In this document: piece by piece, positions 3,548 to 39,386 of the stretch | Layout: each line of letters starts with the position of its first letter | How positions within the stretch are numbered: position 1 is the stretch's first letter | IMG/VR virus record: IMGVR_UViG_3300047494_000043 | Location: 1 to 46,477 of that record | Strand: one strand, 5' to 3' | Length of the DNA: 46,477 nt | DNA from: a virus | Made by a program: the position numbers and the translations under genes | The notes under the pieces: model-generated | The model's input: the letters and a program-made list of their open reading frames with translations, nothing else | Databases searched by the model: none | What the model was told of the DNA's origin: nothing

Positions 3548-4825
3548 ATGTCTTTGCGAATCGCACTTACTAGCTACACTGGCTACGGAGCACATTTCAT
3601 TCTTCGACTTCTCGCCGAAGGACACAAAGTTGACTATTACTTAACGGAGCCAGATTATGCTAATATTCTTGAAGGCATTATCCCGAGTCCTTATATCCAG
3701 GCTCGTGGGTCAAAAGGATACCCTAAATATTCGAAGTACGATCTATCAATATTTGACCTTACAGGCCGCGAGCGGTGTGCTGAGTATTCAGCAACGTGTT
3801 GCCCAACTATTGGTGACGGCGCGTTTAACTGCGCGGTTGAAGACGATCGCATGTTTGGACTTAACGCTATGGTCGAATGTGGGATTCAAGTACCCCCTTT
3901 TGAAAGATTCACGGATGTGGGACAAGCTAAAGTTTATATATCAAAATCGAAAAAGCGATACGTTTACAAACCGGACGGCGGACAGGAAAACGACACTGAT
4001 ACGACTTACGTATCTAGCTCTGATACAGACATGCTTGATAATATTGACAAGTTGTTTGCTAAAACTAAAGGCAGTCCCTTTGTCCTCCAGGAGTTTATTA
4101 AAGGAACTGAAGTATCTGTAGAGGGATGGTTTAATGGGGATGAGTTTTATCTTGTTAATGTGACGCTTGAAGAAAAAAAATTCATGAATGAAAATCATGG
4201 GCCTAATACTGGTTGTGCAGGGAATTTGGTATTTTATCTTCGTGAGTCTGCGGAACTATATAAGCAGGGACTTGAGAAAATGAAGCCGTATCTTCGTAGT
4301 GTTGGCTATACAGGGATGATTGATCTTAATACTATTGCCACTGATAACGGGCTTTATGGACTTGAGTGGACTCCGAGATTTGGGTACGATGCAAGTGCTA
4401 CGTTGATGCAGATGTACGGCGGTAATATGGGCGAAATGATGTTTAAAATCGCTACAGGCCAAGTACCGGACGAAAGCTGGCGCGGGGAGTTTGCTGCGGG
4501 AGTCCGAATTAGTATTCCGCCGTACCCTAGTGAAATTAAGGGCAAACATCCAGCAGGACTTCCGATTAAAGGTATCACGCCAGCGGATTATGCAAGCACT
4601 TATATGTATGATGTGATGCTTGATAAGGATAAGCAGCTTGTAAGTGCGGGGCACTCCGGTTTCATAGCCGTGCCGACTGGATACGGGCGTGAGATTGGAG
4701 ATGCTTGGGCTATGTGTAATGCACGGATTAAGGAGATGAAAATCCCTAATATGCAGATACGCACTGATATCGAGAAGACTACTACTAAACGGTATAACGA
4801 ACTTTCAAGAATGGGGTTGCTTTAA
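3548..4825 (+). CDS. ATP-grasp ligase-like enzyme, PurD-like fold
   Basis: The product is 425 residues, close to the usual length of glycinamide ribonucleotide synthetase (PurD). An N-terminal Rossmann-like region (residues 3-35) precedes the ATP-grasp domain. Landmarks are the lysine in KPDGG (141-145), QEFIKGTEVSVEG (181-193), HGPNTG (217-222, like GPNTGG of PurD), D259, and LEWTPRFG (272-279), which corresponds to the LEFNxRFGDPE metal/ATP site. The canonical Glu-x-Asn-x-Arg is Glu-x-Thr-x-Arg here, and the PurD N-terminal GGREHA motif is replaced by TGYGAH. The substrate is therefore probably not that of purine synthesis. ATP-grasp enzymes join a carboxylate to an amine or thiol using ATP. 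It lies between virion and fibre genes and overlaps the next gene by the A of TAATG. Fold assignment is fairly sure; substrate is unknown. Confidence 0.75.
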   Translation: MSLRIALTSYTGYGAHFILRLLAEGHKVDYYLTEPDYANILEGIIPSPYIQARGSKGYPKYSKYDLSIFDLTGRERCAEYSATCCPTIGDGAFNCAVEDDRMFGLNAMVECGIQVPPFERFTDVGQAKVYISKSKKRYVYKPDGGQENDTDTTYVSSSDTDMLDNIDKLFAKTKGSPFVLQEFIKGTEVSVEGWFNGDEFYLVNVTLEEKKFMNENHGPNTGCAGNLVFYLRESAELYKQGLEKMKPYLRSVGYTGMIDLNTIATDNGLYGLEWTPRFGYDASATLMQMYGGNMGEMMFKIATGQVPDESWRGEFAAGVRISIPPYPSEIKGKHPAGLPIKGITPADYASTYMYDVMLDKDKQLVSAGHSGFIAVPTGYGREIGDAWAMCNARIKEMKIPNMQIRTDIEKTTTKRYNELSRMGLL

Positions 4826-16763: not shown

Positions 16764-17798
16764 CTAACTAATATCTGGATTCCACGGTTCAGCAACTTTA
16801 AAATCTTGATTCAAGATAGCAAACATCCCGCTACTGCTATTTTGGCGGTGTAGATTTTTAAATTGGCAATCAGTATGAAAGAAATTGCTGCATACCGCCG
16901 TATTCCAATCTGGTTGCTCGCCTAGCGTTATCATATCGTAAATTTTATGAAACGTTCGTAACTGGCGCAAGCGATACTGCTCTAGTTGAAAGTCGGTTTT
17001 AAATAACGGTACGCGTTTAAACCGCTCCATCGCATCTGCATTCGGTGTTACTTGTCCAAAGTTCATCCAGATACGATCTACTTTACGTCCAGCGGCCAAT
17101 TCGGGGAAGTTTTTTTGCACTATATGCCGCGCTGCATATACATAACCAGTCATACCTTCTTGCGGATCGTAAGGTCCGGTAGGGTTGCCTTTAAAAAACG
17201 CGGATGTTTTATGATCCATCGGCCCTATTGCGGAGCCGTTATCTACTAGCAGGTCCATCCGTCCGGTTAGGTAGCAGCGGACTTCTATATCATCCCACCC
17301 TCTGCCATTATCATATCGGCCATAAAATTCTCCAAGCGGCACTTCTCGCTTTTTTCCAAAAGTAATTTCAATCCCAATAACCCTAAGCCGATCAACTTCT
17401 TTCGCAAAATGTTCCGCATACTGTCCCATCATAGCAACAAATCCATGCACTCCACCTAAGACCTTGTACATTTTATGATCTTCATGATAGTGCATCTCGG
17501 ATTCGTGCCAGAGTGTTACAGCACTTGTTAGCCACGCATTTAAATCAAACGATTCTTTTTGCATCGCAACATAAAACCGCTCAACCATCGTATGAAACGC
17601 GATACCAAAATCAAGATTCCAATTACGTCCACCGCTTTTGATATTAGCCATCATGCTAAGTTCAAACGAGGCTTCACACATTCGGAATGTTTGCAGTGCA
17701 TGATGGTCAAGAAATAGCTCGACAACACCATCGTCTGCGATTTGGAACCAGTGATAAAGTTCTGCGGCTTTTTCTATATGCACACATCCTCCCAGCAA
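16764..17798 (-). CDS. PD-(D/E)xK nuclease, Cas4/RecB-like exonuclease
   Basis: The product is 344 residues. It has the RecB/Cas4 nuclease signature: GIAFHTMVERF (65-75, His69), LTGRMDLLV (177-185, Asp182) and PMDHKTS (193-199, Asp195 and Lys197), followed by the QxxxY helix QEGMTGYVYAARH. A cysteine near the N-terminus (41) and CSNFFHTDC near the C-terminus recall the iron-sulphur cluster of AddB/Cas4, though I find only three of four cysteines. It most likely resects DNA ends for the Sak4/SSB pathway. Its 5' end overlaps an HNH gene by 25 bp, so its original start may have been disturbed. Confidence 0.75.
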   Translation of the reverse strand: MLGGCVHIEKAAELYHWFQIADDGVVELFLDHHALQTFRMCEASFELSMMANIKSGGRNWNLDFGIAFHTMVERFYVAMQKESFDLNAWLTSAVTLWHESEMHYHEDHKMYKVLGGVHGFVAMMGQYAEHFAKEVDRLRVIGIEITFGKKREVPLGEFYGRYDNGRGWDDIEVRCYLTGRMDLLVDNGSAIGPMDHKTSAFFKGNPTGPYDPQEGMTGYVYAARHIVQKNFPELAAGRKVDRIWMNFGQVTPNADAMERFKRVPLFKTDFQLEQYRLRQLRTFHKIYDMITLGEQPDWNTAVCSNFFHTDCQFKNLHRQNSSSGMFAILNQDFKVAEPWNPDIS

Positions 17799-18193
17799 AT
17801 ACCACGGCGAATTTTCATAATCATGTTTCTACTTACGTCAAAATCTTTTGCGATTACTGCATTTTTCAAGCCTCTTAAAATTAATTCTTTTATTTTAGTT
17901 ACTTTCCACTCATTTAACTTTGAGTTCTTTCCACGTCTCACATTCTCTTGATGAGTCACTTCTTCCATATGATCTGGGTTAACGCAATGCCTTGGACAAC
18001 CCTTATTAGAAAATTTATGATCTAATTCTAGTCCAACTTTTACTTTTCGTTTATGCTTATCCTCAAATAAAAGGATATGCACACGCTTTGAACTAAAAGC
18101 TGCATAGCCAGTAGCATTTTTAGCTCCTTGCCATAACCAACACCCGAGCTTTTCGTCGATAATAATTTTGCAGGCTGCTTCTTCGATTGTCAT
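17774..18193 (-). CDS. HNH homing endonuclease with C-terminal DNA-binding helix-turn-helix
   Basis: The product is 139 residues. The start GCWLWQGAKNATGYAAF and the core LELDHKFSNKGCPRHCVNPDHMEEVTHQENVRRG are typical of HNH_3-type free-standing phage endonucleases: His in LDH, Asn in VNPDH, and a final His in VTHQENVRRG. Residues about 100-132 look like a resolvase-type HTH (VTKIKELILRGLKNAVIAKDFDVSRNMIMKIR). It sits within the early operon and overlaps the 5' end of the PD-(D/E)xK nuclease. Such genes cut cognate sites in related phages to spread themselves. Confidence 0.85.
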   Translation of the reverse strand: MTIEEAACKIIIDEKLGCWLWQGAKNATGYAAFSSKRVHILLFEDKHKRKVKVGLELDHKFSNKGCPRHCVNPDHMEEVTHQENVRRGKNSKLNEWKVTKIKELILRGLKNAVIAKDFDVSRNMIMKIRRGICWEDVCI

Positions 18194-24998: not shown

Positions 24999-25072
24999 TG
25001 CCCCTAAGTGGATTCGAACCACTAAACATTAGATTTTAAGTCTATTCGCTTTGCCGATTTGCGTATAGGGGC
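24999..25072 (-). tRNA. tRNA with anticodon UAA (Leu), short variable arm
   Basis: A full cloverleaf is visible in 74 nt: a 7-bp acceptor, a D-arm with GG in the loop, an anticodon stem with one A-A mismatch, loop CTTAAAA, and a T-arm with TTCGAAT. CCA is encoded (24998-24996). The anticodon UAA would read UUA (Leu), but the variable loop has only 5 bases, whereas bacterial tRNA-Leu normally has a long variable arm. Confidence 0.9.
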
Positions 25073-25076
25073 TTGG

Positions 25077-25150
25077 TGTGCTAGCTAGGACTTGAACCTA
25101 GAACCTACGAATTAGAAATTCGTTGCTCTATCCAATTGAGCTACTAGCAC
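25077..25150 (-). tRNA. tRNA-Arg (anticodon UCU)
   Basis: A perfect cloverleaf: acceptor GTGCTAG/CTAGCAC, D-arm GCTC...GAGC, anticodon stem ACGAA/TTCGT with loop TTTCTAA (anticodon TCT), and T-stem CTAGG/CCTAG. CCA is encoded. It reads AGA codons. It lies 4 bp from the other tRNA in the same transcript. Confidence 0.95.
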
Positions 25151-37366: not shown

Positions 37367-38568
37367 ATGCCTACACAAGTACGGGGCGCGTATCCTAAAC
37401 TAATGGCTCCGGGGTTGCATAAGATTTACGTAGATGCTCTTGAAACGGAACAGCGTGCAGAAGAGTATCAGGCTATTTTTAACGTAAAGACTTCTACCTC
37501 GGAGTATGAGCAAGACTTGAAGATGGCGGGGTTTGGTCCACTTCAGGAAAAGCCGGAAAATACGCCCGTTGCGTATACTAATATGATCCAGGGTGGCGAT
37601 AAGCGGTATATTCACCTTACCTATGCCTTGGCGGTTCGTACTTCTAAGGAATTGTGGCAGGATGCTAAGTACGGGGTTATTAATCAGGCTCCTAAAGCTC
37701 TTGCTCGTTCTATTCGGTATACGAAGGAAATTGTTGCTTTTAATACTTTTAATCAGGGATTCTCCACTAATGTCACTACGACTGATGGGGTTTCGTTGTT
37801 TAATAACCAGCATCCTCTTCTTGGCGGCCCTAGTGCTACTTCGACGTGGAGCGCGCTTCCTAATCTTATTAGCGCGGCGGGTACTTTCCCCAATCGCCCT
37901 GCTACGGATATTGATCTCTCGTTTACTGGCGTGCAGCTTGGCACAACGCAGTTCGAGCGGTTAGTAGATTCGCAGGGGCTGCCTATTAACCTGAAGCCGA
38001 AAATGGTTCTTATCGCTCCTGAGAATCGTTTCCTCGCTCGTGAATTGTTCGGGTCTAGTGGTAAGCCCGCAACTGATACCAACGACATTAACTCACTTCT
38101 CGGTGAAGATTTGGGTTATATGGTTTGTCATTATTTCACCAACGCTGGCCCTTGGTTTATGGTCGCGGATAAGAAAAATCACTCCCTAACTGTATTCATG
38201 CGGCAGAATCCTGAAGATGAGTTTGATGAGGACTTCGACACTGGCGCTATGAAGCAGAAGACTACCATGCGTATGTCTGCTGGAGCTACGGATTGGTTAA
38301 ATTAATAGCCCCTCGTTAAAGTAATTTAACGATGAGAACTTCGTGAATTCAGGGAAACACCTGCCAAGGTCAATCCTGAGCCAAGCCACTAATAAGTGGA
38401 AGGTGCAACGACTATCCCGACGGGGAGTAGGACTCAGCGAGTCCGAAGCGCGAAGCATCCATTATGGATGATGATATAGTCTGATCTTTTAGGTAACTAA
38501 AAGAGTTAAATCGGAAGCGGATTTAACGTAACATTAATGTAGGCACCTGGGGAAGTAATGGGGCTTAG
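37367..38568 (+). CDS. Major capsid protein, interrupted by a group I intron
   Basis: Exon 1 is 37367-38297 and exon 2 is 38540-38568. The unspliced frame ends after DWLN at 38305 (312 aa). Removing 38298-38539 joins codon T|TA and adds GTWGSNGA before TAG, giving 319 residues. The sequence is that of an HK97-fold capsid protein: a helical N-terminus (EQRAEEYQAIFNVKTS), DGVSLFNNQHPLLGG in the middle, LIAPENRFLARELF, and a final beta strand (KQKTTMRMSAGATDW). It builds the shell around the genome. The splice sites were chosen because they restore a glycine-rich in-frame C-terminus, as is usual in this family; the 3' site is less certain. Confidence 0.85.
38298..38539 (+). ncRNA. Group I self-splicing intron in the capsid gene
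   Basis: Group I core elements are visible in order: P2 hairpin CGTTAAA/TTTAACG (38314-38331), the P/P4 box aatcctgagccaagcc (38372-38387), P6 hairpin CCACT/AGTGG (38386-38399), and the Q/R run aaggtgcaacgactat (38400-38415). After these come hairpin ggactc/gagtcc (P8, 38430-38444), the S box with ATAGTC (38476-38481) pairing R GACTAT (P7), and P9-type hairpins TTTTAG/CTAAAA and GTTAAATC/GATTTAAC. It ends in G. It is about 242 nt with no ORF inside. P1 (GGU with GCC) is short and its register uncertain. Confidence 0.85.
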
Positions 38569-38619
38569 GGTGACAGATTGACCCTTCGACGGCAACCCAT
38601 TTAAAATGAACGACATAGA

Positions 38620-38666
38620 CCTCCTTGACTGTGACGCCATGCGCGAGTATAATTCAGTCAAGGAGG
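38620..38666 (+). promoter_or_regulatory. Promoter inside an inverted repeat that masks the HNH ribosome-binding site
   Basis: cctccttgactg (38620-38631) and cagtcaaggagg (38655-38666) are perfect 12-bp inverted arms. The left arm holds TTGACT (-35, 38625-38630); TATAAT (-10, 38648-38653) lies 17 bp on. The right arm holds the aaggagg ribosome-binding site of the HNH gene. Read-through RNA would form the stem and hide the site; RNA started here (about 38660) would lack the left arm and be translated. Confidence 0.85.
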
Positions 38667-38670
38667 ATTT

Positions 38671-39336
38671 ATGGAATCGTATGTTTGCAATATATGTGAA
38701 GTGTTAAAAGAAGAAAGTCTTTTTAAGTATGAAAATGGTAAGGTTCAGAAAACAACTTGCCGTAAATGTTTGAGCAATAAACATAGACTTGAACTGAAAT
38801 TGGAAATGTTCGAGCATCTTGGTAATGTTTGCGCTTGCTGTAAAGAAGATAATCCTGCTTTTTTATGTTTAGATCATATTAATAACGACGGCCATATAGA
38901 AAACAGAAGACTGGGCGAAATCATTGCAATGGCACGAAAATCTGGTTGGGATAAGACTAGATATCAAGTGCTTTGTTTTAATTGTAATATGGCAAAAGCT
39001 AATTTTGGTGGTGTTTGTCCGCATAAACTTTTACTGACTTTACAAACAATCGTAGAAAATAAAAATCTGTATATCCGTTCTATGGGACGTACAGTAGGTA
39101 ATTTCGATACATCTAATTTAGCCGCTGCTAGAGAAGTTCTTAAACAGAAAAGATTAGAGCGTGGAGAATATGGAAGGGACGCAGCTACTCGAAGTAAAGA
39201 ATACCGAGAAAGGCATCCTGAATATAAAGACCGTAAGAAAGCCTTAAGACAGGAAAAAGCAATAACAAATACCTTAAATGCTCTTACTCCAGAACAGCTA
39301 GAGCAGTTGCAAAAGATGATGTTGGCTAACGCTTAA
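38671..39336 (+). CDS. Free-standing HNH homing endonuclease next to the intron
   Basis: The product is 221 residues. An N-terminal zinc finger (CNIC...CRKC, residues 6-34) precedes an HNH/recombination endonuclease VII-like core: CACC (about 54-57), LDHINNDG (67-74), LCFNCNMAKANFGGVCPH (about 110-127). The C-terminus is basic and then helical. It lies about 100 bp beyond exon 2, outside the intron, with its own promoter and hairpin control. It probably cuts capsid genes that lack the intron and so spreads intron and itself together. The aaggagg ribosome-binding site is 5 bases before ATG 38671. Confidence 0.9.
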   Translation: MESYVCNICEVLKEESLFKYENGKVQKTTCRKCLSNKHRLELKLEMFEHLGNVCACCKEDNPAFLCLDHINNDGHIENRRLGEIIAMARKSGWDKTRYQVLCFNCNMAKANFGGVCPHKLLLTLQTIVENKNLYIRSMGRTVGNFDTSNLAAAREVLKQKRLERGEYGRDAATRSKEYRERHPEYKDRKKALRQEKAITNTLNALTPEQLEQLQKMMLANA

Positions 39337-39351: not shown

Positions 39352-39386
39352 CCCCTACCGGCGGCCATCTCCCTAACCGGTAGGGG
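39352..39386. terminator. Hairpin after HNH gene
   Basis: CCCCTACCGG (39352-39361) pairs with CCGGTAGGGG (39377-39386) around a 15-base loop. There is no T-run, so it is a weak terminator or an RNA stability element that separates HNH and lysozyme messages. Confidence 0.55.

Follow-up and report, generated by a model that had tools for sequence, protein, structure and literature searches.

A free-standing nuclease gene behind a phage major capsid gene, with and without a group I intron in the capsid gene tail

In cyanophage S-PM2 the free-standing nuclease F-CphI adjoins the intron-split psbA gene, whose intron lies at or near the F-CphI target, and joint transfer of the two is expected (PMC6083498; review PMC3984707). 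In the ICP1 terminase gene (nuclease T5orf172), and in T3/T7-like cases, the nuclease lies beside but outside the intron of an essential virion gene, an arrangement whose origin has been called unclear (PMC10448857). WHO elements at the yeast FBA1 gene place a nuclease immediately behind a conserved gene, and each homing event exchanges the 3' end of that gene for a diverged version, with no intron alternative (PMC7282813). The T4-type homing genes I-TevI, SegB and Aeh1 mobE hide their ribosome-binding site in read-through RNA, and a promoter placed to skip part of the hairpin frees it (PMC2988022). Finally, mycobacteriophage LittleE has an intron in its major capsid gene, with a putative homing gene inside the intron (PMC3706429).

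The capsid locus described here resembles each of these systems in part. As in S-PM2, a free-standing nuclease adjoins an intron-split gene, but this gene encodes a capsid protein, cutting is proposed, many alleles have the nuclease only, and transfers are recorded by near-isogenic pairs. (A search of S-PM2 with our nuclease profile for F-CphI gave no match, which is uninformative either way.) As in ICP1, the nuclease is outside the intron of a virion gene; it is of another type, however, and the one locus has alleles with the nuclease alone as well as alleles with nuclease and intron. WHO elements encode an intein-derived nuclease, have been shown to cut, and replace about 400 bp, whereas here the stretch replaced is 13-103 nt and cutting is proposed. 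The hairpin promoter is placed as in the T4-type genes but is sigma-70-like, not a late promoter, and is known from sequence alone. Unlike in LittleE, the nuclease gene is not within the capsid intron.

The window, i.e. the whole stretch of DNA analysed, is a 46.5-kb virus record with genes for an SU10-type portal, the major capsid protein (MCP) and further proteins on the + strand. The features of the capsid region are:

37367..38297, + strand: MCP exon 1, Mu gpT-like / Phage_capsid_4 (Pfam PF25209, E 6e-13; PF10124, E 1e-7)
38298..38539, + strand: group I intron near the MCP 3' end, 242 nt, without an ORF (Rfam RF00028; boundaries from uninterrupted relatives)
38540..38568, + strand: MCP exon 2, 29 nt, supplying LGTWGSNGA and the stop (spliced frame equals the ends of intronless relatives)
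38620..38666, + strand: perfect 12-bp inverted repeat (arms 38620-38631 and 38655-38666) holding a sigma-70-like promoter and a Shine-Dalgarno sequence
38625-38630 and 38648-38653, + strand: sigma-70-like promoter, -35 TTGACT and -10 TATAAT, 17 nt apart
38660-38666, + strand: Shine-Dalgarno sequence AAGGAGG of the nuclease gene
38671..39336, + strand: free-standing gene for a putative HNH / beta-beta-alpha-metal nuclease, 221 aa (ORF, PHROG HNH match, conserved residues, model pLDDT 88)
39352..39386, + strand: hairpin CCCCTACCGG/CCGGTAGGGG 3' of the nuclease gene (RNA fold)

Elsewhere the window has genes for a phage-borne phosphoribosylglycinamide synthetase-like ATP-grasp protein (3548-4825, +) and an FtsK/SpoIIIE-like ATPase in the replication half of the phage (19513-20643, -), a pair of adjacent tRNA genes (24999-25150, -) and, among the replication genes, a second HNH-type nuclease (17774-18193, -; Pfam HNH_3, E 4e-4, under the cut-off).

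The MCP has 92-95% amino acid identity to 23 relatives from uncultivated viruses; a GTDB scan for MCP added just three capsids, more distant ones from metagenome-assembled genomes. Uninterrupted genes are the rule (22 of the 24 nearest relatives) and end in A(T/S)DWLGTWGSNGA and a stop, the encoded end being GATDWLGTWGSNGA plus stop. These ends therefore fix the splice sites: exon 1 runs to 38297 (GATTGGT), the intron occupies 38298-38539 and exon 2 is 38540-38568. Joining 38297 to 38540 recovers exactly the MCP end of the relatives, with the frame ATDWLGTWGSNGA plus stop. The Rfam RF00028 match (38288-38503, 98.6 bits, E 2e-24, gathering score 50) spans the full model, 1-253, and so includes the conserved catalytic core and secondary structure of a group I intron. 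At the splice junctions, GGT/TAAA...TTAATG/TAGG, the 5' exon ends in U and the intron in G, the frame is restored, and the U preceding the 5' splice site is able to pair as U.G in P1. Core, splice ends and restored frame all point to a group I intron, which is predicted to be self-splicing. A longer intron containing the nuclease was ruled out because the capsid protein is already complete at the end of exon 2, ahead of the nuclease.

The nuclease gene starts 102 nt past the exon 2 stop and the intron is ORF-less, confirming the original prediction that the nuclease is a separate unit outside the intron, some 100 bp beyond exon 2. The locus thus has the anatomy of collaborative homing, a free-standing nuclease gene beside an intron without an ORF. 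Profile matches to the nuclease are weak (PHROG 589, HNH, E 4e-4; PHROG 2914, endonuclease VII, E 4e-3), and a Pfam search gave nothing over the cut-off. As expected for an HNH / beta-beta-alpha-metal protein, 20 homologues keep, with few or no exceptions, the zinc-binding Cys pairs, the DH motif of the catalytic His and the CxxCN residues; the second His of a DHDH motif was not seen. Foldseek with the AlphaFold model (mean pLDDT 88) found no significant match. A second look gave structure matches, all low-scoring, to Hpy99I (Z 5.2, 38 residues), an HNH nicking enzyme and endonuclease VII; a PDB sequence search gave only marginal matches to unrelated zinc proteins. Taken together, the conserved residues, the model and the low-scoring structure matches fit a beta-beta-alpha-metal nuclease.

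The leader of the nuclease gene has its promoter inside a hairpin. The Shine-Dalgarno sequence has a predicted pairing of 1.00 in read-through RNA versus 0.01 when transcription starts at the internal promoter so that, in silico, it is hidden in the former and otherwise free, as in hairpin-controlled homing genes. Many nuclease homologues have similar leader hairpins with differing arm sequences. When a leader was called at a promoter score of at least 9/12 plus Shine-Dalgarno pairing of at least 0.8, promoter-in-hairpin leaders were found in 11 of 25 nuclease genes versus 0 of 144 control genes from the same contigs. Hairpin regulation of nuclease expression is accordingly a prediction: read-through MCP mRNA would conceal the nuclease ribosome-binding site, and RNA initiated inside the hairpin would leave it exposed. 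The hairpin downstream of the nuclease gene (39352..39386) is possibly the end of the capsid transcription unit; it was not called by a terminator scan that requires a T-run.

With MCP or nuclease as the seed, five scans of uncultivated viral contigs yielded 164 distinct MCP alleles, of which 147 could be assessed downstream; all records except the window's own are uncultivated metagenome contigs. A nuclease homolog lies directly behind MCP in 25 of the 147. The intron is present in three (the window, L017 and L024), all of them among the 25, leaving 22 nuclease alleles without an intron. No assessable allele has an intron but no nuclease, and scanning for the conserved core of the intron brought up no further one in a capsid gene. 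The association has a P of 0.004 (0.026 if the window is left out), values that are indicative only since alleles are interrelated and the sample came partly from a nuclease search; the three known intron alleles are, moreover, not independent. In two alleles, L042 and L346, the usual MCP stop is absent and the frame continues into a short Gly/Ala-rich tail ahead of the nuclease. The introns of L017 (6864-7110) and L024 (6946-7195) share the site TGGGGT/, and that of the window (TTGGT/TAGG) lies 14 nt upstream of it in the same MCP tail. L017 and L024 share 81% identity in the intron, and the intron of the window is 64-66% identical to theirs (intron ends are approximate to a few bases); for MCP, the nucleotide identities are 67% (L017/L024) and 81% (window/L017).

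Near-isogenic pairs record what has been exchanged. L017, which has intron and nuclease, shows one mismatch in 6862 nt upstream against L016, L018 and L020, which have neither. Then 898 nt comprising intron, 15-nt exon 2 and nuclease replace 31 nt of L016, after which 127 of 127 nt are identical up to the end of the L017 contig. On its left the block starts at TGGGG/, beside the 5' splice site, and on its right it ends at the nuclease stop codon. In this one recent case, as read from the aligned sequences, intron, exon 2 and nuclease have been swapped as a single block. Because exon 2 is within the block, a single insertion or deletion is unlikely to have produced it; gene conversion could have. 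Joint transfer of intron and nuclease, as in collaborative homing, is thus recorded for L017, not for the window itself.

Other pairs show exchange of the nuclease without an intron. Over 930-nt MCP stretches of L357 and L354 (another contig that stops soon after the breakpoint) all four differences are within 13 nt of the stop, and in L037/L271 all 25 MCP differences are within 103 nt of it; every one of these changes is synonymous. In both cases the target is identical upstream and diverged only at its nuclease-side 3' end, as with WHO elements. L364/L367 and L339/L347 have 4-5 differences in the last 27 nt and then none or almost none, against a noisier background. In every pair homology returns just past the nuclease stop. 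Repair of a double-strand break with its anchor in the MCP tail would be expected to leave such footprints, and the intronless pairs show, at the level of sequence comparison, a nuclease that would home alone into the tail and overwrite it with a synonymous version. The synonymous tails may be plain donor sequence, not protection.

Inspection of sequences revealed a related element directly after the MCP stop, typically TAA-GTNNTTGAAAACAAAG. By a pattern defined after that inspection, this docking element is present in 13 of 22 intronless nuclease alleles versus 2 of 122 nuclease-free ones, and the sequence 3' of L024 exon 2 resembles one version of it. We infer that the nuclease unit has this element as its left end and would therefore be in place independently of the intron. 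L239 (3353-3380) and L276 (3448-3470) have a GTNNTTGAAAACAAAGG element past the MCP stop with no nuclease after it; these are perhaps relics of a lost nuclease unit.

The nuclease and MCP trees conflict, and the nucleases of the three intron alleles do not group as a single clade, although the position of the window's nuclease is uncertain. A scan with the L024 nuclease found no new close homolog, its best matches being already known MCP-linked alleles. A correlation of MCP tail with nuclease type was discarded, as the misaligned row L365 had distorted it. The L346 nuclease (3539 onward) looks recombinant, with an N-part like that of L353 and a C-part identical to that of L339; nucleases therefore also appear to turn over at the MCP-tail spot. 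In another phage, L104 has a nuclease relative (151-832) within a group I intron match (27.6 bits, under the gathering score).

We consider it likely that the nuclease homes to the MCP tail under hairpin control, sparing its own allele by virtue of an altered tail, and that the intron joined later. The nuclease would target the conserved 3' tail of MCP as a free-standing homing endonuclease, which implies cleavage near the intron site; a nuclease-lacking MCP, once cut, would be repaired from the donor, copying in the block from MCP tail to nuclease stop. The donor would itself escape cutting through its altered tail, which in most alleles would be a different, synonymous sequence and in the window, L017 and L024 a tail split by the group I intron. 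In intron alleles the intron and nuclease would then travel together, which is collaborative homing. The data suggest that the nuclease arrived before the intron, being probably the first resident behind MCP. A more elaborate version, which we put forward tentatively as something short of an even bet, is that recoded tail and intron are two interchangeable routes to self-immunity and that alleles already carrying the nuclease took up an intron, at two sites separated by 14 nt. Collaborative homing as originally predicted survives in part, with support at the population level: the nuclease family homes, as we read it, to an MCP tail that bears introns, and joint block exchange is seen in L017, but the partnership is not mutual, as the nuclease has no intron beside it in 22 of the 25 alleles and homes on its own as well. 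Independent occurrence in relatives, which was to have counted against collaborative homing, was found by half: the nuclease is often alone, the intron never. The data support collaborative homing with the intron as an optional passenger, not an obligate pairing.

Could the intron be a mere hitchhiker inside the transferred tract, giving no protection against cutting by a nuclease that homes alone? The many intronless nuclease alleles (22/25) and the several near-isogenic pairs with intronless homing are what this explanation would lead one to expect, but all three intron alleles have the nuclease (at the indicative P of 0.004, or 0.026 without the window) and both intron sites are within the short converted tail, so that we think it unlikely. 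Alternatively, the nuclease could have started as an intron-encoded gene that relocated to a position behind exon 2, nuclease-only alleles having since lost the intron. Relatives of the nuclease do occur in or against the same intron type in other genes (L104, L101, L050 and L065); L050, L065 and L104 suggest intron-encoded cousins, and given these the window's nuclease may have an intronic origin. Against that history, nuclease-only alleles are far commoner and more diverse, intron alleles are few and at two different sites, and their nucleases fall outside a single clade (with the caveat on the window's place), making it quite improbable. Lastly, chimeric contigs or neutral recombination might have created the juxtaposition with no nuclease-driven process. 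These are indeed metagenome contigs, and L017 and L354 end shortly past the breakpoint. However, the breakpoints of several separate pairs coincide with a splice site and with stop codons, splicing gives an exact frame, and the cleanest pairs differ in the tail alone; an artefact of this kind is hardly credible.

Nuclease homing to the MCP tail, with the intron as a later partner, would mean that a selfish gene is overwriting a phage capsid gene at its 3' end. One locus displays the stages together (MCP empty, MCP with the nuclease, and MCP with both nuclease and intron, the last at two sites) and its near-isogenic pairs record individual homing events, which makes it possible to test there in what order events happened and what part the intron has in self-protection. 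The nuclease-first, intron-later order bears on the origin question left in PMC10448857 and, if true, two-route immunity would give a direct view of how collaborative homing originates.
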